This document shows positions 4,847 through 33,476 of a stretch of DNA of 64,000 bases, one piece after another. Each line of letters starts with the position of its first letter. Within the stretch, counting starts at the first letter, position 1. A model generated the notes under the pieces. It was not told the DNA's origin and made no database searches. It worked only from the letters and a program-made list of their open reading frames with translations. The position numbers were made by a program, and so were the translations under genes. The stretch is from Pelagerythrobacter rhizovicinus (GTDB lineage Bacteria; Pseudomonadota; Alphaproteobacteria; Sphingomonadales; Sphingomonadaceae): assembly GCF_004135625.1 (NCBI RefSeq), contig NZ_SDPV01000001.1:186001-250000 (forward strand), written 5' to 3'.

Positions 4847-4876
4847 ATTTCTTTCTTGCAAGGAGACATCTCCAGC

Positions 4877-13563: not shown

Positions 13564-13631
13564 CACGGCGGTCAGCCATGGAACGGGAGCGCGGGGCCGG
13601 CCGTTGGGCTCTTGCCGAAAAGGAGACCATC

Positions 13632-15179: not shown

Positions 15180-15931
15180 CCGCCGCCATCCTGTGCGAGC
15201 GCGAGAAACGCCGGAATCTCGCCCCCGCCGTGCAGCTCGATCGCCGCGCCGGAGACGTAGGCGGCGTCGGGCGAGGCGAGCCAGGCCACGCAGGCGGCCA
15301 CGTCGTGCCCGCGCGCCATGCGCTTCATCGGCAGCGTGGCGCCGAGCCGCGCGACGCCTTCCGCACCGCCGTAGTGTTCCACCTGATCGGCATTCTCCAC
15401 CAGGCCGATCACGATCGCATTGACCCGAACGTCCGGCCCCCATTCCATCGCCAGGCCCTGCGTCGCGCTGATCAAGCCCGCTTTTGCCGCACCGTACGCA
15501 ACGGTACCCGGTGCCGCGCGCAGGCCGGAGATGCTGGCGATATTGACCACCGAACCGCCCGCATCGCGCAAGGCGCCGTAGGCCGCGCGCGCGAGGATGA
15601 GCGGCGCGGTCAGATTGAGGGCGATCACTTTCTCGAGCAGTTCGGGCGAGGAGTCGGCGACCGCCGCCGCAGGTGTTCCCCCGGCATTGTTGACCAGCAG
15701 GTCGAGACGTCCGCAACGCTCGATGGCCGTGGCCACCAGCGCCTCGACAGCGGCGGGATCGCGCACGTCGGTCGGCAGGAACAGCGCCTCTCTCCCGCCA
15801 GCGGCTACCGGCTCAGCGGGCGCCCGGCGCGCGCAGACGGCGACCTGCCATCCGTCGGTGAGCAGCCGTTCGGCAATCGCGCGTCCGATGCCGCGCGTTC
15901 CCCCGCTGATCAATGCGACGCGTTCGCTCAT
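15176..15931 (-). CDS. Short-chain dehydrogenase/reductase
   Basis: The 251-residue SDR has the NAD(P) motif SGGTRGIGRAIAERLL, NNAGG, the catalytic serine in NIASISG, and YGAAKAG supplying Tyr and Lys. The ATG at 15931 starts MSERVALISGG; a longer frame to 16177 crosses into the divergent promoter and is rejected. It is cotranscribed with the LuxR-type regulator and divergent from ipdA. The likely role is oxidation or reduction of a hydroxyl or keto group on a steroid or steroid-derived acyl-CoA, based on neighbours only. Confidence 0.82.
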   Translation of the reverse strand: MSERVALISGGTRGIGRAIAERLLTDGWQVAVCARRAPAEPVAAGGREALFLPTDVRDPAAVEALVATAIERCGRLDLLVNNAGGTPAAAVADSSPELLEKVIALNLTAPLILARAAYGALRDAGGSVVNIASISGLRAAPGTVAYGAAKAGLISATQGLAMEWGPDVRVNAIVIGLVENADQVEHYGGAEGVARLGATLPMKRMARGHDVAACVAWLASPDAAYVSGAAIELHGGGEIPAFLALAQDGGG

Positions 15932-16001
15932 GTCCGTACCGTGTCCTCTCTCGTCTCGTCTGGAGCCTATCCCCGGACACCGCAAGTCGCCGTCACCAAA
16001 T

Positions 16002-16024
16002 GGGGGTATCGGCCGATCGCCCCC
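16002..16024. promoter_or_regulatory. GC-rich dyad in the divergent region before ipdA
   Basis: A perfect 10-bp palindrome, ATCGGCCGAT (16008-16017), is flanked by GGGGG on the left and CCCCC on the right, with a one-base asymmetry. It lies between the SDR/LuxR unit and the ipd operon, 45 bp before the ipdA start. It could be an operator for the LuxR-type or another regulator, or a leader hairpin. The sequence alone does not tell these apart. Confidence 0.4.
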
Positions 16025-16068: not shown

Positions 16069-16953
16069 ATGCCGACGATTGACAAGACGATGGACGCCGC
16101 TGCGGTGGTTTCACGGTTGCGAAGCGGCATGACCCTGGGCATCGGCGGCTGGGGGCCGCGCCGCAAGCCGATGGCACTGGTGCGCGAGATCCTGCGTTCG
16201 GACCTCACGGATCTGACGCTGGTCTCTTACGGCGGCCCCGACGTCGGCATGCTGTGCGCGGCGGGCAAAGTGAAGAAGCTCGTCTTCGCCTTCGTTTCGC
16301 TCGACGAGATTCCGCTTGAGCCCTGGTTCCGCAAGAGCCGCGAGGCCGGCGTGATCGAGGTGCTCGAGCTCGACGAGGGCATGTTTCAGTGGGGCCTCAA
16401 GGCCGCGGCGTTCTCCGTGCCGTTCCTGCCGACGAGGGTCGGACTCGGAACCGATCTGCTCGAACTGGGCGGTCTGAAGACGGTCACCTCACCCTACGAC
16501 GACGGCGAGGTCCTGGTCGCCATACCCGCGCTAAAGCTAGACGCCGCCCTGATCCACGTTCACCGGGCGGACCGGCGGGGCAATGTCCAGGCGCTCGGGC
16601 CGGACACGTACTACGACGAATGGTTCGCCAAGGCCGCGGCCGAATGCTTCGTCTCCTGCGAGGAACTGGTCGATGCGATGGAGGCTTCCTACCCGCAGGA
16701 CGTCAGGGCCAACCTGTTCGAACGGTGCTTCGTGACCGGCGTCGCCAAGACGCCCGGCGGGGCACATCCGACGACCATGCCGCCCGCCTATGGTTGGGAC
16801 ATGGGGTGGCTGAAGAAATACGCCGCCGCGGCCAAGGATCCGGGGGGCTGGAACGCAGTCGCCGAATGGGCGGTGGGCGCGAGCGAGGCCGATTATCTCG
16901 CCTCGGTCGGCGGGCAAGAGGGAGTAGCGGCGCTTCCGCTGCCGGTGTTCTGA
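16069..16953 (+). CDS. ipdA: COCHEA-CoA hydrolase subunit A (steroid C/D-ring opening)
   Basis: IpdAB, a relative of class I CoA transferases, hydrolyses the last carbocycle of the steroid C/D remnant. The 294-residue protein shows the IpdA pattern: AAVVSRLRSGMTLGIGGWG, RRKPMALVREILRSDLTDLT, SYGGPDVGMLCAAGKVKK, then DEGMFQWGLKAAA and PFLPTRVGLGTDL, ending with GGAHPTTMPPAYGWD. These segments match, from memory, the mycobacterial IpdA sequence well beyond general CoA-transferase similarity. The ATG at 16069 overlaps nothing upstream and starts the 14-gene operon; AGAGAGGA lies about 15 bases before it, rather far. It needs IpdB as its partner. Confidence 0.88.
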   Translation: MPTIDKTMDAAAVVSRLRSGMTLGIGGWGPRRKPMALVREILRSDLTDLTLVSYGGPDVGMLCAAGKVKKLVFAFVSLDEIPLEPWFRKSREAGVIEVLELDEGMFQWGLKAAAFSVPFLPTRVGLGTDLLELGGLKTVTSPYDDGEVLVAIPALKLDAALIHVHRADRRGNVQALGPDTYYDEWFAKAAAECFVSCEELVDAMEASYPQDVRANLFERCFVTGVAKTPGGAHPTTMPPAYGWDMGWLKKYAAAAKDPGGWNAVAEWAVGASEADYLASVGGQEGVAALPLPVF

Positions 16954-17744
16954 TGAGCATTACGCTGGCAGAACTGTGCATCGTCGCCTGTGCGGAAGCG
17001 TTTCGCACGAGCCGCGAGATCATCGCCACCGGCATCGGACCGATCCCCCGCATCGGCGCGGGTCTGGCCAAGCTGACCCACTCGCCGGGCCTGATGATGA
17101 CCGACGGCGAGGCGTTCCTGGTCGAGCAGCCGGTTCCGCTCGGCGCGACGGGTGACGAACGCCCCACGCCGGCCGGATACCTGCCTTTCTCGCGCTTCTT
17201 CGACAGCGCGGTGTGGAGCGGGCGGCGGCACGCGATGGTGACCCCGACTCAGATCGACCGGTTCGGGCAGACCAACCTTTCGGCGCTGGGCGGTACGCAT
17301 ACGCGGCCCAAGGTGCAGATGCTGGGCGCGCGGGGCTTCCCCGGCAACGGCATCTATCACCCGAACTCGATGTTCATTCCGGCGCACTCGCCGCGCGTGT
17401 TCGTCGGCGGCGAAGTCGATCGCGTCTCCAGCCCCGGGTACAATCCGGCGCGGCGCGTGCCGGGCGGGAACTACGGCGGCATCGACCTGCGGCGGATCGT
17501 CACCGACTTGTGCGTCATGGACTTCGGCGGCCCCGATCATGCGATCCGCGTCGTCTCGCTGCACCCCGGGGTGATCTTTGCGCAGGTGCAGGACGCGACC
17601 GGATTCGAACTGATCGACGCCGTCGAAGGCGAAACGCCGCTGCCGGGCGAGGAGCAGCTGGCGCTGATCGAACGGCTCGATCCGCGCGGCTTTCGCGCCC
17701 GGGTTCTCAAGGACAATCCTCCGGCAGAAAGGGGCGCATCATGA
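16953..17744 (+). CDS. ipdB: COCHEA-CoA hydrolase subunit B
   Basis: This is the partner of IpdA in the ring-opening hydrolase. The 263-residue protein begins SITLAELCIVACAEAFR, followed by GIGPIPRIGAGLAKLTHSPG and LMMTDGEAFLV. It later has DRFGQTNLSALG and MDFGGPDHAIRVVSLHPGV. This layout is typical of IpdB-type beta subunits, which differ from acyl-CoA transferases in lacking the canonical catalytic glutamate context. Its ATG lies on the last base of the ipdA stop codon (TGATG), giving equimolar translation. Confidence 0.87.
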   Translation: MSITLAELCIVACAEAFRTSREIIATGIGPIPRIGAGLAKLTHSPGLMMTDGEAFLVEQPVPLGATGDERPTPAGYLPFSRFFDSAVWSGRRHAMVTPTQIDRFGQTNLSALGGTHTRPKVQMLGARGFPGNGIYHPNSMFIPAHSPRVFVGGEVDRVSSPGYNPARRVPGGNYGGIDLRRIVTDLCVMDFGGPDHAIRVVSLHPGVIFAQVQDATGFELIDAVEGETPLPGEEQLALIERLDPRGFRARVLKDNPPAERGAS

Positions 17745-18652
17745 CCGAGCCCGGCAACGACGGCCTCGAGCCGCCGACCCCCAGCGAGCACGTCTACGAG
17801 ACCGACGAGCCGGTCCTCTACGAGGCTGCCGGCGGAATCGCGCGCGTGACGCTGAACCGGCCGCGCTATCACAACGTCCAGAACAGCCAGATGACTTACG
17901 CGCTGGATGACGCCTTCCGCCGCGCGGTAGACGACGATGCGGTCAAGGTGATCGTGCTTAAGTCCGACGCCAAGCACTTCAGCGCGGGGCACGACATCGG
18001 CTCGCCCGGGCGGGACTTCCATGCGAGCGTCGATCGGCGGCTCATGTGGTACGATCACGCCAACAAGGCCGGCGCCGAGAAAGCCTATATCCGCGAGCAG
18101 GAACAATACCTCGGCATGTGCAAGCGCTGGCGGGACATTCCCAAGCCGACGATCGCGCAGGTCCATGGCGGCTGCATCGCCGGCGGTCTGATGCTGGCCT
18201 GGGTCTGCGACCTGATCGTCGCCTCGGACGACGCGTTCTTCCAGGATCCGGTGCTGCAGATGGGCTTCCCGGGCCTCGAATATTTCGCCCATTGCCACGA
18301 GCTCAACGTGCGGATCGCCAAGGAATTCCTGTTCCTCGGCGAACGGATGAGCGCGCAGCGCGCCTACGAGATGGGCATGGTCAACCGCGTCGTGGCGCGG
18401 GCCGATCTGGAGGCCGAAGTGGCGCGCATCGCTAGCCGGATCGCGGAGCAGCCGCGGCTGGCGCTCCAGCTCGCCAAGCAGGCCTGCAACCACATGGAGA
18501 CGCTTGCGGGCAAGAACGCCGGGATCGATGCGGCCTTCGGCTACCACCACTTCGCCCACGCCAACAACACGCTGGTCAAGGGCGACTACATCGCCGGGTT
18601 CGACGGCAAGAAAATGGCCGAGAAGAACAAGCGGCAGACGGGCGAGGACTGA
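17741..18652 (+). CDS. Enoyl-CoA hydratase/isomerase family protein
   Basis: This 303-residue crotonase-fold protein carries an N-terminal extension of about 30 residues (EPPTPSEHVYETDEPVLYE). The core has VTLNRPRYHNVQNSQM, KHFSAGHDIGSPGRD (oxyanion-hole region) and GGCIAGGLMLAWVCDLIVASDDAFFQDP. A 20-residue insertion rich in charged residues sits between the two oxyanion segments. It is coupled to ipdB by a 4-bp overlap. It is the second of two crotonases in the operon. A hydratase, isomerase or retro-Claisen hydrolase role in C/D-ring breakdown is plausible, but the specific step is unknown. Confidence 0.8.
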   Translation: MTEPGNDGLEPPTPSEHVYETDEPVLYEAAGGIARVTLNRPRYHNVQNSQMTYALDDAFRRAVDDDAVKVIVLKSDAKHFSAGHDIGSPGRDFHASVDRRLMWYDHANKAGAEKAYIREQEQYLGMCKRWRDIPKPTIAQVHGGCIAGGLMLAWVCDLIVASDDAFFQDPVLQMGFPGLEYFAHCHELNVRIAKEFLFLGERMSAQRAYEMGMVNRVVARADLEAEVARIASRIAEQPRLALQLAKQACNHMETLAGKNAGIDAAFGYHHFAHANNTLVKGDYIAGFDGKKMAEKNKRQTGED

Positions 18653-18655
18653 CGT

Positions 18656-19744
18656 TTGGCCGACCCGCTCGCCACTCCGCTGACCGTGCTGCTCGGGTGC
18701 CGCCTGCCGGTGGTGCAGACCGCGATGGGCTGGATCGCGACGCCGAGGCTCGTGGCGGCGAGCAGCAATGCGGGGGCGTTCGGGTTTCTCGCGGGCGCGG
18801 TGATGACGCCGGCCGAGCTGGCCGAGGCGATCGCGGAGACCGCACGGCTCACGCCGCACCGGTTCGGGGTCAACTTCCACAGCTTTCAGCCCGGCGCGCG
18901 CGAGATCGTCGAGGTGATCCTCGCCAACAGCGAGCGCGTCGGCGCGGTGAGTTTCGGGCGCGGGCCCGACGCCGGCATGATCGCGCGCTTCAGCGAGGCC
19001 GCGATCGTCTGCATGCCGACCGTGGGCGCGGTGAAGCACGCCGAGAAGATGGTCGCGCTGGGCTGCCGGGCGATCACCGTCCAAGGTGGTGAGGGCGGGG
19101 GGCACACCGGCTCGGTCGCGACCACCGTGCTGCTGCCGCAGGTGCTCGATGCGGTGAACGTACCGGTCGCGGCAGCCGGTGGGTTCGCCGACGGGCGCGG
19201 TCTGGCAGCGGCGCTTGCCTGGGGGGCGAGCGGCATCGCCATGGGCTCGCGTTTCATGATGACCGCCGACAGCCCGGTGCCCGATGCGGTCAAATCCGCC
19301 TATACGCGCGCGGGGACCGCCGACATCCTCGTCACCGACCGGATCGACGGCATTCCGCAGCGGATGATCCGCAATGCCATGCTCGACCGCATCGAGAGCG
19401 GTGGCACGCTCGGCAAGTGGAGCCGTGGTCTCACCGCCGCCGTCGCGATGAAGCGCGCGACGGGCGCGAGCTGGGGCGAACTGCTCGCCAGCGCCCGCGC
19501 GATGCGGAGCGAAGGCGGAAAGTCTCTGCCCGAGGCCATGCTCGCCGCCGCCGCGCCTGTCCTGCTGCAGAAGGCGGTCGTGGAGGGCGATGCAATCAAT
19601 GGACTGATGGCGTCCGGCCAGGTCTCCGGCCGCCTCGGCGATCTGCCGACCTGCGCCGAGCTTCTCGCCCGGATCGAAACCGAAGCGCGCCAGCGGATCG
19701 CGGCGTTCACCGGCCGTCCGGCCGCAATCAAGGGAGCTGCGTGA
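18656..19744 (+). CDS. ipdC: IpdC-like FMN-dependent CoA-ester reductase (nitronate monooxygenase fold)
   Basis: This 362-residue TIM-barrel flavoprotein belongs to the nitronate monooxygenase/enoyl reductase family. It has VVQTAMGWIATPRLVAASSNAG, the phosphate-binding VQGGEGGGHTGSVAT, and AAAGGFADGRGLAAALAWGASG. In steroid degraders, the IpdC member reduces a CoA-linked C/D-ring intermediate before IpdAB acts. The start is TTG at 18656, with GAGGA a few bases upstream. The identification rests on family plus the conserved ipdA-ipdB-ipdC neighbourhood. A true nitronate monooxygenase is less likely here. Confidence 0.83.
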   Translation: MADPLATPLTVLLGCRLPVVQTAMGWIATPRLVAASSNAGAFGFLAGAVMTPAELAEAIAETARLTPHRFGVNFHSFQPGAREIVEVILANSERVGAVSFGRGPDAGMIARFSEAAIVCMPTVGAVKHAEKMVALGCRAITVQGGEGGGHTGSVATTVLLPQVLDAVNVPVAAAGGFADGRGLAAALAWGASGIAMGSRFMMTADSPVPDAVKSAYTRAGTADILVTDRIDGIPQRMIRNAMLDRIESGGTLGKWSRGLTAAVAMKRATGASWGELLASARAMRSEGGKSLPEAMLAAAAPVLLQKAVVEGDAINGLMASGQVSGRLGDLPTCAELLARIETEARQRIAAFTGRPAAIKGAA

Positions 19745-20493
19745 TGCCGATTGGCTGGTCCGTGGAAGATCGCATTGCCGAAATCGTGTTCGACGTGCCG
19801 CCGGTCAATGCGTTCGATTCCGCGACCTGGCTCAAGCTGCCGGGCATTATCGGTTCCCTGGCCGCGCGGCAGGACGTGCACTGCATCCTGATCCGCGCCG
19901 AGGGGCGGGGCTTCTGCGGGGGCGTCGACATCAAGGAGATGCAGGCGCATCCCGAGCGCATCACCGAGCTGAACCGAGGCAACTATCTCACCTTCAAGGT
20001 GATCCGCTCGGCCGAAGTCCCGGTGGTGAGCGCGGTGCACAGCTTCGTGATCGGCGGCGGGATAGGCATTTGCGGCGCCTCGGACACGGTCATCGCGGCC
20101 GAGGACGCCTATTTCTCACTGCCCGAGATCGACCGGGGCGCGATGGGCGGGGCGAGCCACCTGTCGCGAATGTTGCCGCTGCACAAGGTGCGCGCGGCGT
20201 TCTTCACCGGCGGCAAGATCCGGGCCGAGGAGGCTTGGCGGCTCGGCGCGATCGAGAAAGTCGTCCCGCGAGAGGCGCTTAGAGCCGAGGCGCGCGCCTT
20301 CTGCGCCACGATCGCGTCGAAGAGCCGCAAGGCGCTGACCATCGCCAAGGAAGCGTTGAACGGGCTGGAAGAGCGCGACGTCGATCGCGGCTACCGCTGG
20401 GAACAGGGCTTCACGCTCGAGATGTACATGCACGAGGACAGCCAGAAGTCGCGCGACGCGTTCGTCGAGACCGGCGGGGCGGCGAAGTTCTGA
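19744..20493 (+). CDS. echA20: EchA20-like crotonase, retro-Claisen ring-cleaving step
   Basis: The 249-residue crotonase shows EIVFDVPPVNAFDSATW, LIRAEGRGFCGGVDIKEMQ, FVIGGGIGICGASDTVIA and EDAYFSLPEIDRGAMGGASHL. These match, from memory, the mycobacterial EchA20 sequence more closely than generic hydratases. EchA20 is the ring hydrolase that opens the D-ring remnant by a retro-Claisen-like reaction. The ATG overlaps the ipdC stop (TGATG). Its presence next to ipdABC strongly supports a HIP-type pathway. Confidence 0.86.
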   Translation: MPIGWSVEDRIAEIVFDVPPVNAFDSATWLKLPGIIGSLAARQDVHCILIRAEGRGFCGGVDIKEMQAHPERITELNRGNYLTFKVIRSAEVPVVSAVHSFVIGGGIGICGASDTVIAAEDAYFSLPEIDRGAMGGASHLSRMLPLHKVRAAFFTGGKIRAEEAWRLGAIEKVVPREALRAEARAFCATIASKSRKALTIAKEALNGLEERDVDRGYRWEQGFTLEMYMHEDSQKSRDAFVETGGAAKF

Positions 20494-21656
20494 TGGATCT
20501 CGCCTACACCACCAGGCAGCAGGCTTTCCGGCAGGAGGTGCGCGAGTGGCTTGCGGCGCATGTTCCGGCCGAGCGGCTGGTCACGCTTGAGCGGCAGGAC
20601 GGCTTCGATCAGCACGTCGCGTGGGAGCGCGAGCTGGCGAGCGGCAACTGGGGCATGGTGACCTGGCCGAGCGAATATGGCGGGCGCGGGCTCGATCTGA
20701 TCGAGTGGCTCATCTTCGAGGAAGAATACTGGGCCGCCGGCGCGCCGCTGCGGGCGAACCAGAACGGCATTTTCCTGCTGGGCCCGACGATCATGGAGTT
20801 CGGTTCGGACGAGCAGAAGGCGCGCTTCCTGCCGCCGATGGCGAAAGGCGAGGTGATCTGGGCGCAGGCCTGGTCCGAACCCGGCGCGGGCAGCGATATG
20901 GCCGCGATCAAGGCGACCGCGCGGCGTGAGGGCGATCACTATGTGATCAACGGGCAGAAGACCTGGTCGAGCCGGGCGAGCTTTGCCGACTGGGGCTTCG
21001 GCCTGTTCCGCACCGAGGAAGGCAGCCAGCGGCACAAGGGCCTCTCGTTCCTGCTGTTCGACCTGAACGCGCCCGGGATCACCCGCCGCCCGATCCGCCA
21101 GCTTCACGGCGATCCGGGCTTCGCCGAACTGTTCTTCGACGAGGTCCGCGTGCCCGTGGAGAACCGCATCGCGGGCGAAGGCGAGGGCTGGAAGGTGGCG
21201 ATGGCGACTGCCGGCTTCGAACGCGGCCTGATGCTGCGCTCGCCCGGCCGCTTCCAGGCGACCGCCGCGCGGCTGATGGCCCTGCTGCGGGAGACGGCGG
21301 ACCGCGCCTCCCCAGGGCTGCGCGAAGAGGTCGTGCGGCTGTGGATGGGCGCGCAGGCCTATGCCTACAACACCTACCAGGTCGCGGCGCGGATCATGGC
21401 CGGCGGCTCGATCGGCGCCGAGGCGAGCCTGAACAAGATCTTCTGGTCCGAACTCGACCGCGCGATGCACCGCGCGGCGATGCACCTGCTGGGGCCCGCC
21501 GCCGAATTGCAGACCCTGCCCGATGGCCGCGCGAACGAGTGGCTCGAGGGCTACATCTTCTCGCTCTCCGGCCCGATCTACGCCGGTTCGAACGAGATCC
21601 AGCGCAACATCACCGCCGAGCGCCTGCTCGGCCTGCCACGCGTGGGAGCGGGCTGA
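20493..21656 (+). CDS. fadE31: Acyl-CoA dehydrogenase, FadE31-like large subunit
   Basis: The 387-residue acyl-CoA dehydrogenase contains EEEYWAAGAPLRANQNG, IWAQAWSEPGAGSDMAAIK, WSSRASFADWGFGLF and LRSPGRFQATAARL. The end is IYAGSNEIQRNITAERLLGLPR. The usual catalytic-glutamate position of the C-terminal motif (YEGT in many homologues) reads YAGS, with alanine near residue 364. The active base is therefore expected in the partner encoded next, as in heteromeric steroid dehydrogenases. Sequence pattern and position fit FadE31. Confidence 0.83.
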   Translation: MDLAYTTRQQAFRQEVREWLAAHVPAERLVTLERQDGFDQHVAWERELASGNWGMVTWPSEYGGRGLDLIEWLIFEEEYWAAGAPLRANQNGIFLLGPTIMEFGSDEQKARFLPPMAKGEVIWAQAWSEPGAGSDMAAIKATARREGDHYVINGQKTWSSRASFADWGFGLFRTEEGSQRHKGLSFLLFDLNAPGITRRPIRQLHGDPGFAELFFDEVRVPVENRIAGEGEGWKVAMATAGFERGLMLRSPGRFQATAARLMALLRETADRASPGLREEVVRLWMGAQAYAYNTYQVAARIMAGGSIGAEASLNKIFWSELDRAMHRAAMHLLGPAAELQTLPDGRANEWLEGYIFSLSGPIYAGSNEIQRNITAERLLGLPRVGAG

Positions 21657-22588
21657 TGGATTTCAGACTTCCACCGGAAAGCGTCGAACTGGCCGAGGCG
21701 GTGCGCGAGTACCTTGGCGGCACGCATGGGCCGGACGTGCTGCGGCAGCTCGATGCCGGCGGCAACCGCGATCTGCGGATATGGCAGGGACTCGTCGAGA
21801 TGGGCCTGACCGGACTGCTCGTGCCCGAGAGCGAGGGCGGGCTGGGCATGACGCTGCTCGATGGCGCGCTGATCGCCCGCGAATGCGGCCGCGCCTGCTT
21901 GGCCGAGCCGCTGGTCGACACAGCGCTGGTCGCGGTTCCGTGGCTGATCGCGCGCGGCGAGACCGGCCATCTCGCCGCGATCGCGGCGGGCGAGAAGCTC
22001 GTCGCCCTGCCGCACGCGGTGAACCCGTGGGTTGCGGACGGGGAGGGGGAGGAGCTTGCGAGCGTCGATCCCCTGCGCAACCTCGTGGCCGCGCCCGAGG
22101 GCGCCGGCGACGATCCCCTGCTGCTCGATCTCGGTGCGCTGATGAGCGCGGCGCAGCTTGTCGGCCTGGCCGAGGCCATGCTCGACCAGGCGGTCGCCTA
22201 TGCCAAGGTGCGCGAACAGTTCGGTCATCCGATCGGCGGGTTCCAGGCGATCAAGCATAAGCTGGCCGATGTCGCCGTCGTGCTCGAGTTCGTGCGCCCG
22301 GTCCTCTGGCGTGCGGCGCAGGCGATGGACGACGGGCTGCCGAGCGCGCCGCTGCACGTCAGCCACGCCAAATACGCCGCGACCGATGCCGCCTATCTCG
22401 CCGCGGAAAGCGCGATCCAGGTCCACGGCGCGATGGGCTATACCTACGAAGTCGATCTCCACTTCTGGATGAAGCGCGCATGGGCGCTCTCCGGCGCCTG
22501 GGGCGACCGCAATTTCCACTATCACCGGATCGAGGACGCCGCGCTCGGCGGCGCGCACCCCCTCGGCCCGCAGCACACGTTCGCCTGA
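21656..22588 (+). CDS. Acyl-CoA dehydrogenase, short partner subunit (FadE32/33-like)
   Basis: At 310 residues it is shorter than a typical acyl-CoA dehydrogenase (about 380). The N-terminal helical domain is recognisable (DFRLPPESVELAEAVREYLGG), the middle beta domain is much reduced, and the C-terminal domain has YAKVREQFGHPIGGFQAIKHKLAD. HGAMGYTYEVDLHFWMKRAW places a glutamate near residue 265, where the catalytic base of alpha2-beta2 steroid dehydrogenases lies. It is encoded directly after the large subunit with a TGATG junction, so a heteromer is likely. FadE32 and FadE33 cannot be separated here. Confidence 0.8.
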   Translation: MDFRLPPESVELAEAVREYLGGTHGPDVLRQLDAGGNRDLRIWQGLVEMGLTGLLVPESEGGLGMTLLDGALIARECGRACLAEPLVDTALVAVPWLIARGETGHLAAIAAGEKLVALPHAVNPWVADGEGEELASVDPLRNLVAAPEGAGDDPLLLDLGALMSAAQLVGLAEAMLDQAVAYAKVREQFGHPIGGFQAIKHKLADVAVVLEFVRPVLWRAAQAMDDGLPSAPLHVSHAKYAATDAAYLAAESAIQVHGAMGYTYEVDLHFWMKRAWALSGAWGDRNFHYHRIEDAALGGAHPLGPQHTFA

Positions 22589-22595
22589 GGAGCCG

Positions 22596-23747
22596 ATGGC
22601 CGAAGCCTATATCATCGACGCGGTCCGTACCCCGATCGGGCGCAAGAAGGGTTCGCTCGCCCAGGTGCATCCGGCCGATCTCGCCGCGCACCCGCTGCGC
22701 GTGCTGATCGAGCGGACAGGCATCGACGCGAACGCGGTCGACGACTGCGTGTGGGGCTGCTGCGACACGATCGGTCCACAGGCGGGCGACATCGGGCGCA
22801 CGGCATGGCTTGTCGCCGGCCTGCCGCAGCACGTGCCCGGCACGACGGTCGATCGCCAGTGTGGCTCCAGCCAGCAGGCGGTGCATTTCGCTGCGCAGGG
22901 CGTCATGAGCGGCACGCAGGATCTCGTCGTCGCGGGTGGCAGCCAGGCGATGAACGCGATCCCGATCTCCGCCGCGATGTTCGCCGGCCAGCCGTACGGC
23001 TTCGACAATCCGTTCAACACCGCGCGCGGGTGGGTCGAGCGCTATGGCGGCGGCGTTCTCAACCAGATCAACTCGGCCGAGATGATCGCCGAGAAGTGGA
23101 ACATCTCGCGCGAGGCGATGGAGCGGTTCGCGCTCGCCAGCCACGAGCGTGCGCAGGCGGCGTGGGACAACGGCTGGTTCGATGCGGAAGTGGCGCCGCT
23201 GGCGGGGCTCGAACGCGACGAGACGATCCGCCCGAACACGACGCTCGAAGGGCTCGCCGCGCTCAATCCGGTGCAGGAAGGCGGGCGCGTCACCGCGGGG
23301 GTCGCGAGCCAGAACTGCGACGGCGCGGCCGCGCTGCTGATCGCGTCCGAGCAGGCGGTGAAGGACCACGGCCTCACGCCGCGCGCGCGCATCCACCACA
23401 TCTCGGTGCGGGCGGACGATCCGGTGTGGATGCTCACCGCGCCGATCCCGGCGACCAGGCATGCGCTGGAGAAGGCGGGCATGACGGTCGCGGACATCGA
23501 CCTGTTCGAATGCAACGAGGCCTTCGCCAGCATCCCGATGGCCTGGATGCAGGAACTCGGCATTCCGCACGAGAAGATCAACGTCCAGGGCGGAGCGATC
23601 GCGCTCGGCCATCCGCTGGGCGGCACGGGCGCGCGGCTGATGACCACGCTGCTCGGCGCGCTGGAGCGCACCGGCGGCCGCTACGGTCTGCAGACCATGT
23701 GCGAGGGCGGCGGCCAGGCCAACGTGACGATTATCGAGAGGCTTTGA
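22596..23747 (+). CDS. fadA6: FadA6-like acetyl-CoA acyltransferase (thiolase)
   Basis: This 383-residue thiolase performs the thiolytic cleavage in C/D-ring beta-oxidation. The nucleophilic cysteine is in TVDRQCGSSQQA (Cys89). The second active-site region has FECNEAFA, GHPLGGTGARL (His near 339) and MCEGGGQANV (Cys near 369). The N-terminus MAEAYIIDAVRTPIGRKKGS is normal for the family, and the QCGSSQQA form is shared with FadA6. GAGGAG lies just before the ATG, 7 bp after the preceding stop. Confidence 0.87.
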   Translation: MAEAYIIDAVRTPIGRKKGSLAQVHPADLAAHPLRVLIERTGIDANAVDDCVWGCCDTIGPQAGDIGRTAWLVAGLPQHVPGTTVDRQCGSSQQAVHFAAQGVMSGTQDLVVAGGSQAMNAIPISAAMFAGQPYGFDNPFNTARGWVERYGGGVLNQINSAEMIAEKWNISREAMERFALASHERAQAAWDNGWFDAEVAPLAGLERDETIRPNTTLEGLAALNPVQEGGRVTAGVASQNCDGAAALLIASEQAVKDHGLTPRARIHHISVRADDPVWMLTAPIPATRHALEKAGMTVADIDLFECNEAFASIPMAWMQELGIPHEKINVQGGAIALGHPLGGTGARLMTTLLGALERTGGRYGLQTMCEGGGQANVTIIERL

Positions 23748-23750
23748 CGA

Positions 23751-24653
23751 ATGGGGATCTGCGAAGGCAGGACTGTGATCATTACCGGCGCGGCGCGCGG
23801 GCTGGGCCGCGCCTATGCGCTGGCCTTCGCCGCCGAGGGCGCCAACGTCGTCGTCAACGACATCGGCGCCTCGCTGGGCGGCGAAGGGCGCGACACGTCG
23901 GCCGCCGACGCCGTGGTCGAGGAAATCCGTGTGGCCGGCGGGAAAGCCGTCGCCAATTACGACGATGTGACCGATTGGGATGCCGCCAGGCGGATCGTCG
24001 AGGCTGCGGTGAGCGAATTCGGCGACCTCCACGTGGTGGTCAACAACGCCGGGATCGTGCGCGACCGGATGTTCGTCTCCGCCACGCTCGACGAATGGGA
24101 CGCGACGATGCACGTGCATCTGCGCGGGCACTTTTGCGTCAGCCGACATGCCGTCGACTACTGGAGAGCCAAGGCGAAGGTGGGCGAAGCGCCTGACGCG
24201 CGGATCATCAACACGACCAGCGGCGCGGGGCTGCAAGGCTCCATCGCGCAGGCCGCCTACTCGACGGCCAAGGGCGGGATCGCCACGCTCACGCTGGTCC
24301 AGGCGGCCGAGCTCGGCCGCTACGGCATTACCGCCAATGCGCTCGCCCCGGCCGCGCGCACCCGCATGACCGAGCAGGCCTTCGCGGAGAAGATGGCGAC
24401 CGAGGGCGATGCCTTCGACACCATGGACCCCGCCAATGTGGCGCCTGCGGTCGTCTGGCTCGGCAGCGCGCATAGCGCCAAGGTGACCGGCTGCGTGTTC
24501 GAGCTCGAGGGCGGCAAGATCATGCTCGAAGACGGCTGGCGCGAAGGGCCGTTCGTCGACAAAGGCGCGCGGTGGGCGCCGGGCGAGGTGGGCGAAGCAG
24601 TGGACCGACTGCTCGCCGAACGCGTGCCGCCCCGCAAGGTCTGGGGCACCTGA
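23751..24653 (+). CDS. Short-chain dehydrogenase, 3-hydroxyacyl-CoA/17-beta-HSD4-like
   Basis: The 300-residue SDR has TGAARGLGRAYALAFAAEGA, VVVNDIGASLGGEGRDTSAA, VVNNAGIVRDRM, and the Ser/Tyr/Lys catalytic set in NTTSGAGLQGS and YSTAKGG. The VNDIG insert and the roughly 40-residue C-terminal tail (EDGWREGPFVDKG) resemble the dehydrogenase domain of peroxisomal multifunctional enzyme 2. They also resemble the SDRs flanking the mycobacterial ipd genes (Rv3548c/Rv3549c type). It probably oxidises a beta-hydroxyacyl-CoA intermediate. It is encoded 3 bp after the thiolase gene. Confidence 0.8.
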   Translation: MGICEGRTVIITGAARGLGRAYALAFAAEGANVVVNDIGASLGGEGRDTSAADAVVEEIRVAGGKAVANYDDVTDWDAARRIVEAAVSEFGDLHVVVNNAGIVRDRMFVSATLDEWDATMHVHLRGHFCVSRHAVDYWRAKAKVGEAPDARIINTTSGAGLQGSIAQAAYSTAKGGIATLTLVQAAELGRYGITANALAPAARTRMTEQAFAEKMATEGDAFDTMDPANVAPAVVWLGSAHSAKVTGCVFELEGGKIMLEDGWREGPFVDKGARWAPGEVGEAVDRLLAERVPPRKVWGT

Positions 24654-24654
24654 G

Positions 24655-25665
24655 ATGGCATTCGCGCTCGACGAGCAGCAGCAGATGATCGCCGAGACGG
24701 CGGCGGCGTTCTTCGCAGAGAACGCAGGGGGCGAGCGCACGCGGGCCGCGATGGCCAGCGGCATCGATCGCGACCTCTGGCGCGCCTATTGCCGCGAACT
24801 CGGCTTCGGCGGCCTGACCGTGCCCGAGGATCTCGGCGGCGCCGGGCTCGGCCATGTGGAACTGGCGGTCGTTGCCGAGCAGGCGGGCCGCACGCTGGCG
24901 GCGATCCCGCTGCTGGGGCACGCGATGGCGACGGCCGCCCTGCTCGCGAGCGACGATCGGGCGGCGATCGATGCGCACCTTCCCGCGATGATGGCGGGGG
25001 ACCGGAGCGTCGCGGCGGGCGAGCGAGGGGGTGAAGGTTTGCTCGTGCCGCACGCGGCGCAGTGCGATCTGCTGCTCCTGCTTGGCGAAGGCGGTGCGCA
25101 CCTGATCGATGCGAGCGCGGCGACGGTCGAGCCGCTGAAGTCGCTCGACGAGACCCGGCCCCTCGCGCGGGTTCACGCGTCCGCCGGCGATCCGCTCCCC
25201 GGCGGAGCGGCGCCGTGCGAGGCGGCCCGCGCGGCCGGCGTCCTGTGCCTCGCGGCCGAAGCGCTCGGCGGCGCGCAGGAGGCGCTCGATCGCACCGTCG
25301 CCTTTGCCAAGGAGCGCGAGCAGTTCGGCCGTCCAGTGGGCTCGTTCCAGGCCTACAAGCATCGCCTTGCGAACCGCACGGTCGAGATCGAGCAGGCGCG
25401 CTCCGCCGTATGGTGGGCGGCCTGCGCGTTGGACGAAGGGCACGAGACCCGCGCGCTTGCGCTCCATGCCGCCAAGAGCTTCTGCGCGGATACTTATCTG
25501 CGGGTCGCGGGCGACATGATCCAGCTCCACGGCGGCATCGGCTTCACCTGGGAGCACGACGCGCACCTGTTCTTCAAGCGCGCGCGCGCCATCGCGAACA
25601 TGCTCGGCGACGGGCCGCATCACCGCGAGCGCGTCGCGCGGATCATGCTGGACGACGCGGCATGA
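24655..25665 (+). CDS. Acyl-CoA dehydrogenase, short partner subunit
   Basis: This 336-residue member starts FALDEQQQMIAETAAAFFAENAG. It has a shortened central beta domain, FAKEREQFGRPVGSFQAYKHRLAN in the C-terminal helical domain, and HGGIGFTWEHDAHLFFKRARA, where Glu near residue 300 is the expected catalytic base. It is coupled to the downstream FadE30-like gene by a 4-bp overlap and repeats the short-plus-long pairing seen five genes upstream, here with the short subunit first. A heteromer with the next product is inferred. Confidence 0.8.
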   Translation: MAFALDEQQQMIAETAAAFFAENAGGERTRAAMASGIDRDLWRAYCRELGFGGLTVPEDLGGAGLGHVELAVVAEQAGRTLAAIPLLGHAMATAALLASDDRAAIDAHLPAMMAGDRSVAAGERGGEGLLVPHAAQCDLLLLLGEGGAHLIDASAATVEPLKSLDETRPLARVHASAGDPLPGGAAPCEAARAAGVLCLAAEALGGAQEALDRTVAFAKEREQFGRPVGSFQAYKHRLANRTVEIEQARSAVWWAACALDEGHETRALALHAAKSFCADTYLRVAGDMIQLHGGIGFTWEHDAHLFFKRARAIANMLGDGPHHRERVARIMLDDAA

Positions 25666-26840
25666 AGCTGGGGTTCTCCGACATGGAAGAGGCGTTCCGC
25701 CGCGAATGCGCGAGCTGGCTCGACGAGCAGATGGCCGGCGAGTTCGCCGACATCCGCGGGATCGCCAATCTCGTCGACAAACCCGAGCGCCGCAAGGCGT
25801 GGGAGCGGCGGCTGGCCGAGCATCGCTATTCGTGCATCGGCTGGCCGATCGCGTGGGGCGGCCGCGACGCGACGCTCAACGAGCAGGTGATTTTCGCTGA
25901 GGAATATGCGCGCGCCGGGGCGCCTAACCGGCTCAACCACATGGGAGTCGAGCTGCTCGGGCCGACGCTGCTCGCGCTCGGCAGTTCGGAGCAGAAGGCG
26001 CGGTTCCTGCCGGCGATCGCCGAGGGCACGGCGATCTGGTGCCAGGGCTATTCCGAACCCGGCGCCGGCTCCGACCTTGCCGCCATCCGCACCCGTGCGC
26101 GGCGCGACGGTGACGAATGGGTGATCGAGGGGCAGAAGATCTGGACCAGCCTCGCCCAATTCGCCGACATGATTTTCGTGCTCGCACGGACCGAAGACGG
26201 AACCCGCGGCCGCGAGGGGCTGAGCTTCCTGCTCGTCGATCTCGATCAGCCCGGTATCGAAATCCGCCCGATCCGCCAGATCAACGGCGAGGCTGAATTC
26301 AACGAGGTGTTCTTCGACGGCGCGCGCTGCCCGGTCGAGAATATGGTCGGCGCCGAGGGGGAGGGGTGGACGGTTTCGACCACGCTGCTCTCGTTCGAAC
26401 GGGGCATCTCGACCCTCGGCCAGCAGATGCAGTTCCGCAACGAGCTCGACGCGGTGATCGCCGCGGCCAAGCACAACGGCAAGGCGGCGGACCCGGTGTT
26501 CCGGCAGAGGCTCGCCGAGGCCGAGATCGGCCTGCGGCTGATGCGCTACGGCGCGCTTCGCATGCTGGCCGGCGGCAAGGGCGGCGCGCTCGCGGGCGCG
26601 GCGCTGACGTACAAGATCCAGTGGGCGAGCTGGCGCCGGGCGCTGGGCGAGCTGGCGATGGACGTGCTCGGGCAGGAAGGCGAGGTCGCGCCCGCTGATG
26701 CCGAGGGCTGGCCGCTGCTCGCCAATCTCTATCTCTATTCGCGCGCCGACACGATCTACGGCGGCACCAATCAGATCCAGCGCAACCTGATCGCCGAGCG
26801 CGGGCTCGGCCTGCCGCGCGAGCCGAGAGGAAACGCATGA
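25662..26840 (+). CDS. fadE30: Acyl-CoA dehydrogenase, FadE30-like
   Basis: The 392-residue protein has RKAWERRLAEHRYSCIGWP, EEYARAGAPNRLNHMGVELLGP, IWCQGYSEPGAGSDLAAIRT, EFNEVFFDGARCPVENMVG and SFERGISTLGQQMQ. These closely follow the pattern I know for FadE30, which desaturates HIP-CoA in the first beta-oxidation cycle of the propionate side chain. The C-terminal motif reads IYGGTNQIQRN, so the usual glutamate is replaced by glycine. The partner subunit encoded just upstream may supply the base. Confidence 0.84.
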   Translation: MKLGFSDMEEAFRRECASWLDEQMAGEFADIRGIANLVDKPERRKAWERRLAEHRYSCIGWPIAWGGRDATLNEQVIFAEEYARAGAPNRLNHMGVELLGPTLLALGSSEQKARFLPAIAEGTAIWCQGYSEPGAGSDLAAIRTRARRDGDEWVIEGQKIWTSLAQFADMIFVLARTEDGTRGREGLSFLLVDLDQPGIEIRPIRQINGEAEFNEVFFDGARCPVENMVGAEGEGWTVSTTLLSFERGISTLGQQMQFRNELDAVIAAAKHNGKAADPVFRQRLAEAEIGLRLMRYGALRMLAGGKGGALAGAALTYKIQWASWRRALGELAMDVLGQEGEVAPADAEGWPLLANLYLYSRADTIYGGTNQIQRNLIAERGLGLPREPRGNA

Positions 26841-27619
26841 GCCTGACGCCGACCTATCCGCCCGGGCGCGATCTGCTTGCCGGCAAGACCGTGCTCGTCA
26901 CGGCCGCCGCTGGCACGGGCATCGGCTATGCGGTGGCGAAGCGCGCGGTCGAGGAAGGCGCGCGGGTGATGATCAGCGACTGGCACGAGCGGCGCCTCGG
27001 CGAAGCGGCGGGGCGGATTGCCGATGAGACGGGAAGCGAGCCGCCGGCGACGTTCGTGTGCGACGTGACCGATCAGGCGCAAGTCGACGCGCTGCGCGAT
27101 GCTGCGGGAGCCGAGCTCGGCGCGGTCGACGTGCTGATCAACAATGCCGGGCTCGGCGGGGAGACCGTCGTCATCGACATGACGGATGACGAGTGGCACC
27201 GCGTACTCGACGTCACGCTCAATTCCGTCTTCCGCATGACGCGCGCATTCCTCCCCGGAATGTACGCGCGCAAGGGAGGGGCGATCGTCAACAACGCCTC
27301 GGTCCTCGGCTGGCGGGCGCAGAAGGGGCAGGCGCATTACGCGGCGGCAAAGGCCGGGGTCATGGCCTTCACCCGCTGCTCCGCACTCGAGGCGGCCGAG
27401 CACGGCGTGCGGATCAACGCCGTCGCGCCCTCGATCGCGATGCACGCCTTCCTCGCCAAAGTGACGAGCGAGGAATTGCTCGCCGAACTGTCTGCGCGCG
27501 AAGCCTTCGGGCGCCCGGCCGAGGTGTGGGAAGTCGCCAACGTCATGCTGTTCCTCGCCTCCGACCTCGCCAGCTACATGACCGGCGAGGTCGTCCCGGT
27601 GTCGAGCCAGCGCGCATGA
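26837..27619 (+). CDS. ipdF: IpdF-like short-chain dehydrogenase
   Basis: This 260-residue SDR has the unusual nucleotide-binding segment VTAAAGTGIGYAVAKRAVEEGA and ISDWHERRLGEA. It also has INNAGLGGETVVIDMTDDEW, NNASVLGWRAQKGQAHYAAAK and RINAVAPSIAMHAFL. This pattern is shared with mycobacterial IpdF, which oxidises the 5-hydroxy group of the HIC-CoA intermediate of steroid C/D-ring degradation. The Ser-Tyr-Lys set is intact. The ATG overlaps the stop of the FadE30-like gene by 4 bp. Confidence 0.87.
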   Translation: MSLTPTYPPGRDLLAGKTVLVTAAAGTGIGYAVAKRAVEEGARVMISDWHERRLGEAAGRIADETGSEPPATFVCDVTDQAQVDALRDAAGAELGAVDVLINNAGLGGETVVIDMTDDEWHRVLDVTLNSVFRMTRAFLPGMYARKGGAIVNNASVLGWRAQKGQAHYAAAKAGVMAFTRCSALEAAEHGVRINAVAPSIAMHAFLAKVTSEELLAELSAREAFGRPAEVWEVANVMLFLASDLASYMTGEVVPVSSQRA

Positions 27620-28095
27620 GCGGGCCGCGCGTATTCGACCGCCCTGCCGATCTGCTTGGCAACGAGGGCGTTTCGCTCGGCCCGACCGCATGGCTCGCGA
27701 TCGAGCAGGACCGGGTGGACGGGTTCGCCGAGGTCACCGGCGACCACCAGTGGATCCACGTCGACGTCGAGCGCGCGAAAGGCGGGCCGTTCGGCGGCAC
27801 GATCGCGCATGGCTATCTCACGCTGGCGCTCGTGAACCATTTCCTGCCCGAGCTGATCGAAGTGCGCGGCTTCGCCCATGCGGTGAACGTCGGGGCGGAC
27901 CGGCTGCGCTTCCTCGCGCCGGTGCCGGTCGGCAGCCGCATCCGCGCGGCGGGCGAGATCGTGAAGGTCGAGGAGATCAAGGGCGCGGTCCAGCCGACCG
28001 TGCGCGTCACAGTGGAGATCGAGGGCGGAGACCGGCCCGCCTGCACGATCGACACGATCAGCCGCTACTATCCGGAAGAAGGGGGCGTCGGATGA
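27616..28095 (+). CDS. MaoC-like (R)-enoyl-CoA hydratase
   Basis: The 159-residue hot-dog-fold protein has the hydratase motif GFAEVTGDHQWIHVDVERA with the catalytic Asp and His, then GGPFGGTIAHGYLTLALVNHFLP. It is of the single-domain NodN/MaoC type. In this operon it may hydrate an unsaturated CoA ester during the side-chain or ring cycle, paired with one of the SDRs. It overlaps ipdF by 4 bp and fadD3 by 4 bp. Mycobacterial ipd clusters lack an obvious equivalent, so the step is open. Confidence 0.83.
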   Translation: MSGPRVFDRPADLLGNEGVSLGPTAWLAIEQDRVDGFAEVTGDHQWIHVDVERAKGGPFGGTIAHGYLTLALVNHFLPELIEVRGFAHAVNVGADRLRFLAPVPVGSRIRAAGEIVKVEEIKGAVQPTVRVTVEIEGGDRPACTIDTISRYYPEEGGVG

Positions 28096-29630
28096 TCGAT
28101 CCACTGCCTCCGACCGTGCCGCATCTCGTTGCCGCGGCCGCCCGGACCTGGGGCTCGCGCACTGCGCTCGTCGAAGGGGAGGTGCGCTGGTCCTTCGCAG
28201 ACCTCGAGCGGGAATGCCGCGCCGCTGCCTCCGCCATGCTCGCAATCGGCGTGGGCGAGGGGGACCGGGTCGCGATCTGGGCGCCCAACGGCCGCAACTG
28301 GATCGTCGCCGCGGTTGGAGCCATGACGACCGGCGCGGCGATCGTGCCGCTCAACACCCGCCTCAAGGGCCGCGAGGCGGGGGAGATGCTGCGGCGTACC
28401 TCGGCCAAAGTGCTCGTCACTTACGGCGACTTCCTCGGCACCGACTATCCGGCGCTGCTGGCGGGCGAGGACCTTCCCGGGCTGGAGCGGACGGTGCTGC
28501 TCGATTCCGACTGGCAGGCGTTCGTCGCTGAGGGGAAAAGCGCGGAGGATCCGTCGATCGACGAGGCATTGGGCCGCCTGACCGCAGCACACGTCTCCGA
28601 TATCATGTTCACCAGCGGCACGACGGGGGCGCCGAAGGGTGTGGTCTCGACCCACGACCGGATCGTGCCGATGTTCGCGGACTGGGGCCGGCAGATGGGG
28701 CTGACCAGCGACGACCGCTACCTCATCATCAATCCCTTCTTCCATAGCTTCGGCTTCAAGGCGGGCTGGGTTGCGGCGCTGATCGCCGGCGCACCGATCT
28801 ATCCGCTGGCGACGTTCGACATCCCGCAAGTGATCGCGCTGATCGAGCGGGAGCGCATCTCGTTCCTCCCGGGGCCGCCGACGATCTACCAGGCGCTCCT
28901 CGCGGCGAAGGCGGAGGGGGATTTCGACACCTCCTCGCTGCGCGGCGCAGCGACCGGCGCGGCCAGCGTGCCGCCGGAGCTGGTCCGCCGCATGCGCAGC
29001 GAGCTCGGTCTGGTCGACACCGTCACCGCCTACGGCATGACCGAGTGCGCCACGATCACCTCGTGCCGCCGCGGCGACGATGCGGCGCTGATCGCCGAAA
29101 GCTGCGGCCGCCCGCTTCCAGGGCTCGAACTGCGCATCGTCGACGACGAGGGGAGCCCGGTCGCGCAGGGAGAAGCCGGCGAGGTCCAGGTGCGCGGCTA
29201 CGGCGTCATGCTCGGCTATCTCGACGATCCACAGGCGACCGCCGAGGCGATCGCTCCGGACGGCTGGCTCTCCACCGGCGACATCGGCTGGCTCGGCCCG
29301 GAAGGGTATCTGCGGATCACCGACCGCAAGAAGGACATGTTCATCTCGGGCGGGTTCAACGTCTACCCGGCCGAAGTGGAGCGCCTGCTCGCCGAACATC
29401 CGGCGATCGCGCAGGCCGCGGTGATCGGCGTGCTCGACGAGCGCATGGGCGAGGTCGGCAAGGCCTTCGTCGTGCTTCGCCCTGGGCGGGCACTGGCCGA
29501 GAGCGAACTGGCCGAATGGGCGCGCGCGCGCATGGCGAACTACAAGGTGCCGCGCGCCTTCGCGTTCGTCGAGGGCCTGCCGCACAACGCTGCCGGCAAA
29601 GTGACGAAGGAGGCGCTGCGCGATGGCTAG
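28092..29630 (+). CDS. fadD3: FadD3-like acyl-CoA synthetase (HIP-CoA ligase)
   Basis: This 512-residue AMP-forming ligase activates the propionate side chain of the C/D-ring fragment HIP to its CoA ester, the entry step of the pathway. Motifs are MFTSGTTGAPKGVVSTHDR (ATP/phosphate loop), TAYGMTECATIT, LSTGDIGWLGPEGYLRITDRKKD, FNVYPAEVE and the C-terminal catalytic-lysine segment AAGKVTKEALR. It closes the operon; its ATG overlaps the maoC stop by 4 bp. The HIP substrate is inferred from the complete ipd context. Confidence 0.85.
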   Translation: MIDPLPPTVPHLVAAAARTWGSRTALVEGEVRWSFADLERECRAAASAMLAIGVGEGDRVAIWAPNGRNWIVAAVGAMTTGAAIVPLNTRLKGREAGEMLRRTSAKVLVTYGDFLGTDYPALLAGEDLPGLERTVLLDSDWQAFVAEGKSAEDPSIDEALGRLTAAHVSDIMFTSGTTGAPKGVVSTHDRIVPMFADWGRQMGLTSDDRYLIINPFFHSFGFKAGWVAALIAGAPIYPLATFDIPQVIALIERERISFLPGPPTIYQALLAAKAEGDFDTSSLRGAATGAASVPPELVRRMRSELGLVDTVTAYGMTECATITSCRRGDDAALIAESCGRPLPGLELRIVDDEGSPVAQGEAGEVQVRGYGVMLGYLDDPQATAEAIAPDGWLSTGDIGWLGPEGYLRITDRKKDMFISGGFNVYPAEVERLLAEHPAIAQAAVIGVLDERMGEVGKAFVVLRPGRALAESELAEWARARMANYKVPRAFAFVEGLPHNAAGKVTKEALRDG

Positions 29631-32106: not shown

Positions 32107-32125
32107 TCCGGCAAAGGAGCTGACG

Positions 32126-33358: not shown

Positions 33359-33476
33359 ACAGTTTGCTGCGGGGCGCTTTATCGCTGGCCGGGCGCGGCT
33401 TTATCCTCTGGCTCTGATTTCGAACGATGAATGCGCGCGCCTGCCAAAGCGCGGCACGGATTGTGGAGAAGGATCA

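Follow-up and report, generated by a model that had tools for sequence, protein, structure and literature searches.

The stretch of DNA analysed here (the window; 64,000 nucleotides of Pelagerythrobacter rhizovicinus contig NZ_SDPV01000001.1, positions 186,001 to 250,000) contains on its forward strand a 14-gene operon of the HIP (9,17-DOHNA) pathway for degradation of the steroid C/D rings (16069–29630), followed by an eight-gene cassette coding for two predicted oxygenases (29776–39889), in a genome in which none of three tested markers of steroid ring A/B degradation, HsaC, KstD and true KshA, was recognised. The operon itself is the already-known C/D-ring pathway, in the order published for Comamonas; what is new is the locus as a whole, that is, a lower pathway without the upper markers together with an oxygenase cassette.

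Gene content of the HIP operon

The operon consists of 14 open reading frames (ORFs), all on one strand and without interruption, with intergenic gaps of at most 7 nt. Nine of the 13 junctions overlap (four by 1 nt, as TGATG, and five by 4 nt) and the other four are gaps of 1, 3, 3 and 7 nt, in agreement with the initial annotation, which had described a single 14-gene unit with mostly TGATG or ATGA junctions. The GC content of 0.67–0.71 across the operon, compared with 0.63–0.69 in the surroundings, was not decisive. The set combines an ipdAB pair with ipdC nearby, a FadD3-family CoA ligase, two acyl-CoA dehydrogenase pairs, a FadA6 thiolase, an IpdF short-chain dehydrogenase/reductase (SDR) and crotonases. 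NCBI family cut-offs were exceeded by six of the 14 genes (3, 5, 8, 9, 12 and 14), and the IpdE2 model NF050027 stayed under its cut-off of 450 with both small acyl-CoA dehydrogenases (124 and 209 bits).

The first two genes are assigned to the alpha and beta subunits of COCHEA-CoA hydrolase. The closest solved chains to IpdA/ScdL1 (16069–16953) are 6co6, 6coj and 6con (E 8.5e-81 to 6.2e-78), which we take to be Rhodococcus/Mycobacterium IpdAB structures; ipdB/scdL2 (16953–17744), for which no NCBIfam model was matched, is so named because it adjoins ipdA in a placement conserved in relatives. The predicted crotonase encoded by gene 3 (17741–18652; PRK08290, NF006140, 420 bits, over cut-off) fits ScdN by position and family (PMC13101464). 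It is followed by ipdC/scdK (18656–19744), a FabK-like flavin reductase gene recognised from relatives and from the FabK model (205 bits, under cut-off), the start of which is uncertain because it is a TTG. Gene 5 (19744–20493), a second crotonase (PRK07938, NF005925, 320 bits, over cut-off) with EchA8-type crotonases as its best PDB matches, is the EchA20/ScdY candidate because CtCNB2_1280 (EchA20) directly follows CtCNB2_1279 (IpdC) in Table 1 of PMC5380842, and it thus fits EchA20 by position rather than from a sequence comparison with EchA20.

In the central part of the operon lie the fadE31/scdM-type large acyl-CoA dehydrogenase gene (20493–21656), placed by family and position, its small fadE32/scdM-type partner (21656–22588), placed by position and by the 124-bit IpdE2-like match, the fadA6/scdF thiolase gene (22596–23747; PRK07801, NF005865, 650 bits, over cut-off) and an scdE/Rv3548c-type SDR gene (23751–24653; PRK07791, NF005861, 454 bits, over cut-off). 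The second pair is formed by a small fadE33/ipdE2/scdC-type gene (24655–25665; the 209-bit IpdE2 match, and PDB 6wy8 at 4.5e-30) and a large fadE30/ipdE1/scdC-type gene (25662–26840; family and position). The unit closes with the ipdF/scdG SDR gene (26837–27619; PRK07831, NF005880, 448 bits, over cut-off), a MaoC hydratase gene (27616–28095) and the fadD3/scdA gene for HIP-CoA ligase (28092–29630; PRK07656, NF005801, ‘FadD3 family acyl-CoA ligase’, 681 bits, over cut-off). The putative MaoC hydratase gave weak sub-cut-off NCBIfam matches, occupies the same place as a ‘MaoC family dehydratase’ in annotated plasmids and fits ScdD by position and family. The set of core HIP genes listed in the initial annotation and its single operon stand, with the correction that by position gene 5 fits EchA20 and gene 3 fits ScdN. 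Its statement that a crotonase and the MaoC hydratase have no clear mycobacterial counterpart agrees with the mycobacterial regulon table of PMC5380842, in which neither is present, but both fit Comamonas proteins, ScdN and ScdD.

The downstream oxygenase cassette

The eight genes downstream of the operon, termed R-m-a-L-K-d-s-x, are all on the forward strand, in an order kept in other genera. Gene R (29776–32106) codes for a TonB-dependent receptor with Pfam plug and barrel domains; its longest ORF begins at 29623, and the start at 29776, followed by a stretch that by eye resembles a signal peptide, is the likely one. Family matches identified gene m (32126–33358) and gene x (38540–39889) as major facilitator superfamily (MFS) transporters, gene L (34746–35651) as a LysR regulator and gene s (37677–38546) as an SDR.

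Gene a (33477–34670) codes for a PF04909 protein that resembles PtmU3 and AibH2 in family, structure matches and residues, and is a predicted dinuclear-type oxygenase of the class named amidohydrolase-related dinuclear oxygenases (PMC10811679). Its closest solved structures are PtmU3 (5.5e-21), DitZ (8.9e-21) and chain B of 6m1w (1.3e-14), the last being AibH2 as judged by residue numbers. The iron ligands of AibH2 are Asp25, His27, His211, Glu265, Asp337 and His340, and Glu313 is named in addition for PtmU3, a reported diterpenoid hydroxylase (PMC7782822). Aligned to 6omp and 6m1w, gene a has the six-ligand dinuclear site and the PtmU3 Glu, and its residues D10, H12, H205, E256, D331, H334 and E336 are invariant in 22 rows. 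The survey query for gene a began at 33318, 53 residues ahead of the likely start at 33477; stops appeared with this long query in genomes G425, G106 and G157, and none was found in the 22 rows read from the likely start (the match in G250, which is outside the 22, was split in two frames).

Gene K (35799–36815) codes for a Rieske oxygenase with Rieske and KshA_C domains that scored about 100 bits to KshA_C, compared with 175.7–251.9 bits in the KshA group, and for which KshA is the nearest solved structure (4qdf, 2.4e-43). The CPH, CPFH and D-H-H stretches and the late Asp, presumably the metal ligands of KshA, are retained in the alignment. In a tree of 42 rows, the 22 cassette rows formed one clade and eight KshA rows, picked from the high-score group, another, with support of 100/100 and 12 rows in neither, the tree program giving a long-branch warning. 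The possibility that K is simply KshA was rejected on account of this separation and of 14 genomes that carry both K and a true KshA.

Gene d (36844–37677) belongs to the acetoacetate-decarboxylase family (PF06314, 129 bits), the active site of which we take to be a lysine pair and a Glu. The PKK motif is kept, the Glu segment aligns unclearly, and a single stop was found among 22 rows (locus L120).

Markers of ring A/B degradation

The search for upper-pathway genes was based on the window genome (3,007,728 bases, 99.98% complete) and on a set of 51 genomes, made up of the window genome and 50 genomes hand-picked from the best 80 of 490 confirmed places in a scan of public genomes around ipdC; these 80 loci are mostly titled Sphingomonadales and some end at contig breaks. 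No match to the HsaC/TesB extradiol dioxygenase was found in the window genome at E ≤ 0.001. As a positive control, 46 of the 51 locus-bearing genomes matched, 43 of them above 160 bits, and a match of more than 100 bits was missing in eight (G000, G001, G002, G006, G008, G018, G046 and G048; their contig coordinates identify G001, G002 and G008 as G298, G332 and G425 of the family survey described below). Within the 64-kb window neither hsaA nor hsaC gave a match at 1e-5, HsaA, HsaD and the KshA reductase not being searched for genome-wide. The KshA_C model, which matched in 47 of the 51 genomes (a few rows fell at 128–159 bits, between K and the KshA group), gave one match in the window genome, the cassette's gene K. 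No KstD was recognised in the window genome, where two of 19 FAD_binding_2 matches were full-length, identified on visual inspection as SdhA and NadB, and 17 were partial; KstD was matched in 47 of 60 genomes searched.

The analysis was extended to a family survey of 397 genomes drawn from the larger family, with thresholds of 1e-50 for ipdA, 1e-40 for HsaC and for KshA, 1e-30 for KstD and 1e-80 for gene a as the cassette marker. None of seven members of the genus gave a KstD or HsaC match at these thresholds, and KstD, true KshA and HsaC were not matched in the other four ipdA-bearing genomes of the genus either. In the survey as a whole, ipdA was present in 56 genomes and HsaC in 73, the HsaC counts being generous because 1e-40 also catches related extradiol dioxygenases. 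The 56 ipdA-positive genomes included 45 with HsaC, 43 with true KshA and 47 with KstD; eight lacked all three, namely five of the window's genus and G425, G062 and G429. The cassette is present in six of the eight. All three are marker enzymes of the complete aerobic 9,10-seco steroid pathway. The anaerobic 2,3-seco route, which was not searched for, is presumably unlikely here. Neither the genome-wide absence of the markers nor the linked oxygenase cassette could be shown by the initial annotation.

Association of the cassette with the operon

Gene a occurred in 20 of the 397 survey genomes. These represent 11 genera and are without exception ipdA-positive (hypergeometric probability 3e-19, or 5e-8 by genus, with shared ancestry not corrected for). 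The two members of the genus without ipdA were also without the cassette marker, and six of the 20 cassette genomes had no ring A/B markers. In a synteny set of the window and 20 fetched loci (n = 21, one locus per genome), families a, L, K, d and s were each present in 20 loci and all eight genes were consecutive and in the same order in 14, the rest being truncated at region ends, miscalled, interrupted or short of a gene. In the window the cassette directly adjoins the operon, as it does in G425, G021, G022 and three of the four genus mates; the contig of the fourth, G298, breaks inside the receptor gene. At the Brevundimonas terrae locus L052, five cassette genes stand divergently beside the operon, with homologues of L, K and x some kb beyond (L142).

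Synonymous and nonsynonymous changes were compared with the four genus mates by the Nei-Gojobori method and gave omega values of 0.01–0.19 for the operon and cassette genes, which are thus under purifying selection. No stops were present in the aligned 98–100% of each of the 14 operon genes, or in the aligned parts of the eight cassette genes, the receptor being covered over 53–96% of its length because the regions are cut. The idea that these are pseudogenes was rejected on both counts.

In G022 (Sphingosinithalassobacter portus), a single contig carries in succession the HIP operon, the cassette, a second a-L-K-d-s copy and hsaA- and hsaC-like genes, and continues with homologues of the window genes pel, g2, g4 and mtlD. 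The same genes are split across two contigs in G021, where only mtlD of the last four is in the stretch fetched. Further meta-cleavage-like genes in the G021/G022 stretch were named by eye. KstD was matched in neither genome, and their KshA_C matches are all of the K type. The second a-L-K-d-s copy adjoins the first at L139 (G022) and at L140/L141 (G021), with a gene that by eye resembles an aldehyde dehydrogenase between the two copies in G022.

Occurrence of the operon in public genomes

Among the best 80 of the 490 loci, ipdA was on the same strand in 72, all 13 genes from ipdA to maoC were present in 36, and the same order was kept in 33. Such an operon is thus neither new nor rare, and it is common in Sphingomonadales. 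The closest of the 80 loci were those of an Altererythrobacter metagenome-assembled genome (L021) and of Pelagerythrobacter aerophilus (L022), with 88–98% identity per operon gene. In 47 of the 72 loci showing ipdA, the 1.5 kb upstream of this gene includes an HsaC-like gene; L021 and L022 have none there. The HIP operon had been presented in the initial annotation as a find in a Gram-negative host; the host is Gram-negative, as its nearest loci indicate, but such operons were already known from Comamonas, Steroidobacter and Sphingobium Chol11.

A shorter operon, ipdA-ipdB-scdN-ipdC-echA20-fadE-fadE, with no good match to the thiolase, ScdE, the second FadE pair, IpdF or MaoC, occurs at L049, L061 and L096 (and, by eye, at L044, L089 and L091), and L043 displays the same gene set. 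Perhaps these operons serve another substrate.

Divergent promoter region and neighbouring genes

A divergent unit on the reverse strand begins with an SDR gene (15176–15931; PRK07856, NF005893, 319 bits, cut-off 255), found in the same place in the four fetched genus mates, and continues with a gene for a LuxR-type regulator of 385 aa with a C-terminal GerE/LuxR helix-turn-helix (14022–15179); the LuxR-type gene adjoins ipdA in the four genus mates and at L028, L047 and L048. Between the SDR gene and ipdA lies the 17-nt motif CCAWATGGNGGTATCGG (15996–16012, forward strand), which is exact in five genus genomes and at L029, L045, L046 and L060 and has no exact copy at L028, L047 or L048. It occurs once in the window, where 0.3 matches with up to three mismatches are expected, and is possibly an operator.

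Other features of the window include, next to a gene for an AsnC-type regulator, an ORF (13407–14006) whose product has the transducer domain of Anabaena sensory rhodopsin (PF07100, 184 bits), and a sugar-polymer locus (1883–10608) with genes for a TonB receptor, a GH43 protein, an esterase-like protein, a pectic acid lyase and a mannitol dehydrogenase; homologues of several of these genes stand beside hsa-like genes in G022. Beyond the cassette lies a respiratory island (40465–46295) coding for cytochrome b561, cytochrome c, a COX2-cytochrome c fusion and an 848-aa COX1 protein; in G210 and G332 it likewise follows the cassette, and it was not found within the fetched stretch of G148.

A proposed stand-alone lower pathway

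We propose, at a probability of roughly 60%, that the locus imports and trims a HIP-like C/D-ring compound and degrades it via the HIP pathway, in a cell that does not itself cleave rings A/B. This reading is based on gene content and order, conservation, selection, the three missing markers and the co-occurrence of cassette and pathway, all of which were observed; the individual enzyme steps are predicted from protein families and the cited papers, and the substrate, its uptake and the cassette reactions are conjectural. The C/D-ring compound would enter via the TonB receptor and an MFS transporter, and the cassette, with its two predicted oxygenases, SDR and decarboxylase-like enzyme, would oxidise or trim it and deliver it to FadD3; that the cassette hydroxylates and oxidises the imported compound and removes a substituent from it is speculative. 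FadD3/ScdA would form HIP-CoA, the propionate side chain of which would be shortened by IpdE1E2/ScdC1C2, ScdD, ScdE and FadA6/ScdF. The indane would then be prepared by IpdF/ScdG and IpdC/ScdK, ring D opened by EchA20/ScdY and ring C by IpdAB, and the resulting acyclic acid completed by FadE31/32 (ScdM1M2), ScdN and a thiolase. In this genus, the operon would serve as a stand-alone lower pathway. A role of the cassette at or near the HIP level is favoured over ring A/B opening because its marker occurs only with ipdA, either with (14 of 20) or without (six of 20) ring A/B markers.

Several observations weigh against this proposal. Of the 20 cassette genomes, 14 have both HsaC and true KshA and six have neither; the 14 are equally compatible with a role of the cassette in steroid breakdown. 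G062 and G429 lack the cassette as well as all three markers, so that absence of the upper pathway is not coupled to the cassette, and the cassette is remote from ipdA in several genomes (for example, G339 and G345). In G022 it shares one neighbourhood with hsaA- and hsaC-like genes, and in view of the G021/G022 context it may belong to a steroid route. Non-homologous replacements of the upper enzymes may exist, and the operon is without the second thiolase gene that precedes fadD3 in Novosphingobium.

A rival explanation, which we consider unlikely, is a complete steroid degrader with divergent upper enzymes, in which K would carry out the 9alpha-hydroxylation and unrecognised enzymes would replace KstD and HsaC. 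The likeness of K to KshA in solved structures, its kept Rieske and iron-site residues and the G021 and G022 genomes, with KshA_C matches solely of the K type, no KstD and, in G022, hsa-like genes near the cassette, are in keeping with it, but the 22 cassette rows form a clade outside the eight KshA rows, K is not simply a replacement because true KshA accompanies it in 14 of 20 genomes, and the window genome gave no HsaC-type match. The prospects are similarly poor for degradation of a non-steroid polycycle, such as a terpenoid containing a methyl-hydrindane or a comparable ring pair, converging on HIP-CoA intermediates. The nearness of gene a to DitZ and to the diterpenoid hydroxylase PtmU3 (PMC7782822), the absence of ring A/B markers and the restriction of the cassette marker to ipdA-positive genomes would agree with such a substrate, whereas FadD3, IpdAB and others are indistinguishable here from those of proven steroid degraders and nothing points directly to any terpenoid. 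A functionless remnant of a lost steroid pathway, for which the absence here of the upstream HsaC-like gene of many relatives could be cited, is highly improbable, being largely refuted by the intact reading frames and low omega values, with operon and cassette kept together.

The proposal of a stand-alone lower pathway for imported C/D-ring compounds can be taken one step further, to a catabolic island of about 26 kb in which the oxygenase cassette (PtmU3-type and KshA-like Rieske oxygenases, SDR and acetoacetate-decarboxylase-like protein, with importer genes of its own) replaces the whole ring A/B route and converts a steroid- or terpenoid-derived polycycle to HIP-pathway intermediates; this extension is tentative and somewhat doubtful. 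HIP genes are commonly regarded as the final section of a complete steroid pathway. Their retention under selection in a genus that lacks the tested markers of the earlier section would imply either cross-feeding on C/D-ring compounds that other cells excrete or a second point of entry; the cassette offers concrete candidate genes for such an entry and sets amidohydrolase-type dinuclear and KshA-like Rieske oxygenases in a testable context.

Comparison with known systems

No publication on the cassette or on HIP genes in Pelagerythrobacter was found in the open-access literature, where reports naming both this genus and steroids concern phenanthrene degradation by Pelagerythrobacter sp. N7 and a nucleotidase gene-distribution survey. 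The cassette was also compared with the bile-salt cluster bsd I of Caenibius tardaugens, in which an ‘amidohydrolase’ is likewise present, and identity of the two was rejected because of different gene content: bsd I comprises TetR, monooxygenase, Scd4AB, SclA, MaoC and alpha/beta hydrolase genes, and neither ‘LysR’ nor ‘decarboxylase’ occurs in the main text (PMC12882949). Compared with PtmU3, AibH2 and SfbO, gene a is closest to PtmU3/DitZ, with D-x-H, H, E and D-YP-H and the extra PtmU3 Glu kept (PMC7782822, PMC10811679); it is nevertheless distant from PtmU3/DitZ (E about 1e-20), and there is no small Rieske ferredoxin gene among the eight cassette genes.

In Comamonas testosteroni, the cluster order is scdL1L2-N-K-Y-M1M2-F-E-C1C2-G-D(-J), with scdA in addition, ScdN being a hydratase in beta-oxidation past C-ring cleavage and ScdD the side-chain hydratase (PMC13101464). 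By published order and family, rather than by direct protein sequence, 13 window genes match this cluster and a counterpart of fadD3/scdA is present. The window operon differs in having fadD3 inside and no second thiolase gene at its end (the place of ScdJ), and the window genome in having no HsaC/TesB match. Comamonas and Steroidobacter counterparts of the HIP genes are tabulated in PMC5380842 (Table 1) and those of Sphingobium Chol11 in PMC8399759. With the Mycobacterium/Rhodococcus KstR2 regulon (PMC5380842), the window shares by family and position ipdA, ipdB, ipdC, echA20, fadA6, ipdF, four fadE genes, fadD3 and the Rv3548c-type SDR gene, and it differs in having a single operon with an extra ScdN crotonase and ScdD MaoC gene and a LuxR gene alongside, no TetR-type gene being found among the neighbouring genes scanned in the window.

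A further HIP operon, in Novosphingobium sp. ES2-1 (NZ_CP063448.1, L019), lies on a plasmid classed as conjugative; hsaC is missing immediately upstream, and TonB, MFS, TauD and amidohydrolase genes are nearby. The Novosphingobium plasmids pNL2 and ES2-1 p3 share the gene order of the window, with identities mostly of 54–86% and a lowest value of 39% for one small FadE of pNL2. Both plasmids carry an NTF2-type gene and a second thiolase gene ahead of fadD3, and pNL2 has hsaC and hsaA upstream, all absent from the window; unlike in either plasmid, the operon in the window is followed by the R-m-a-L-K-d-s-x cassette.

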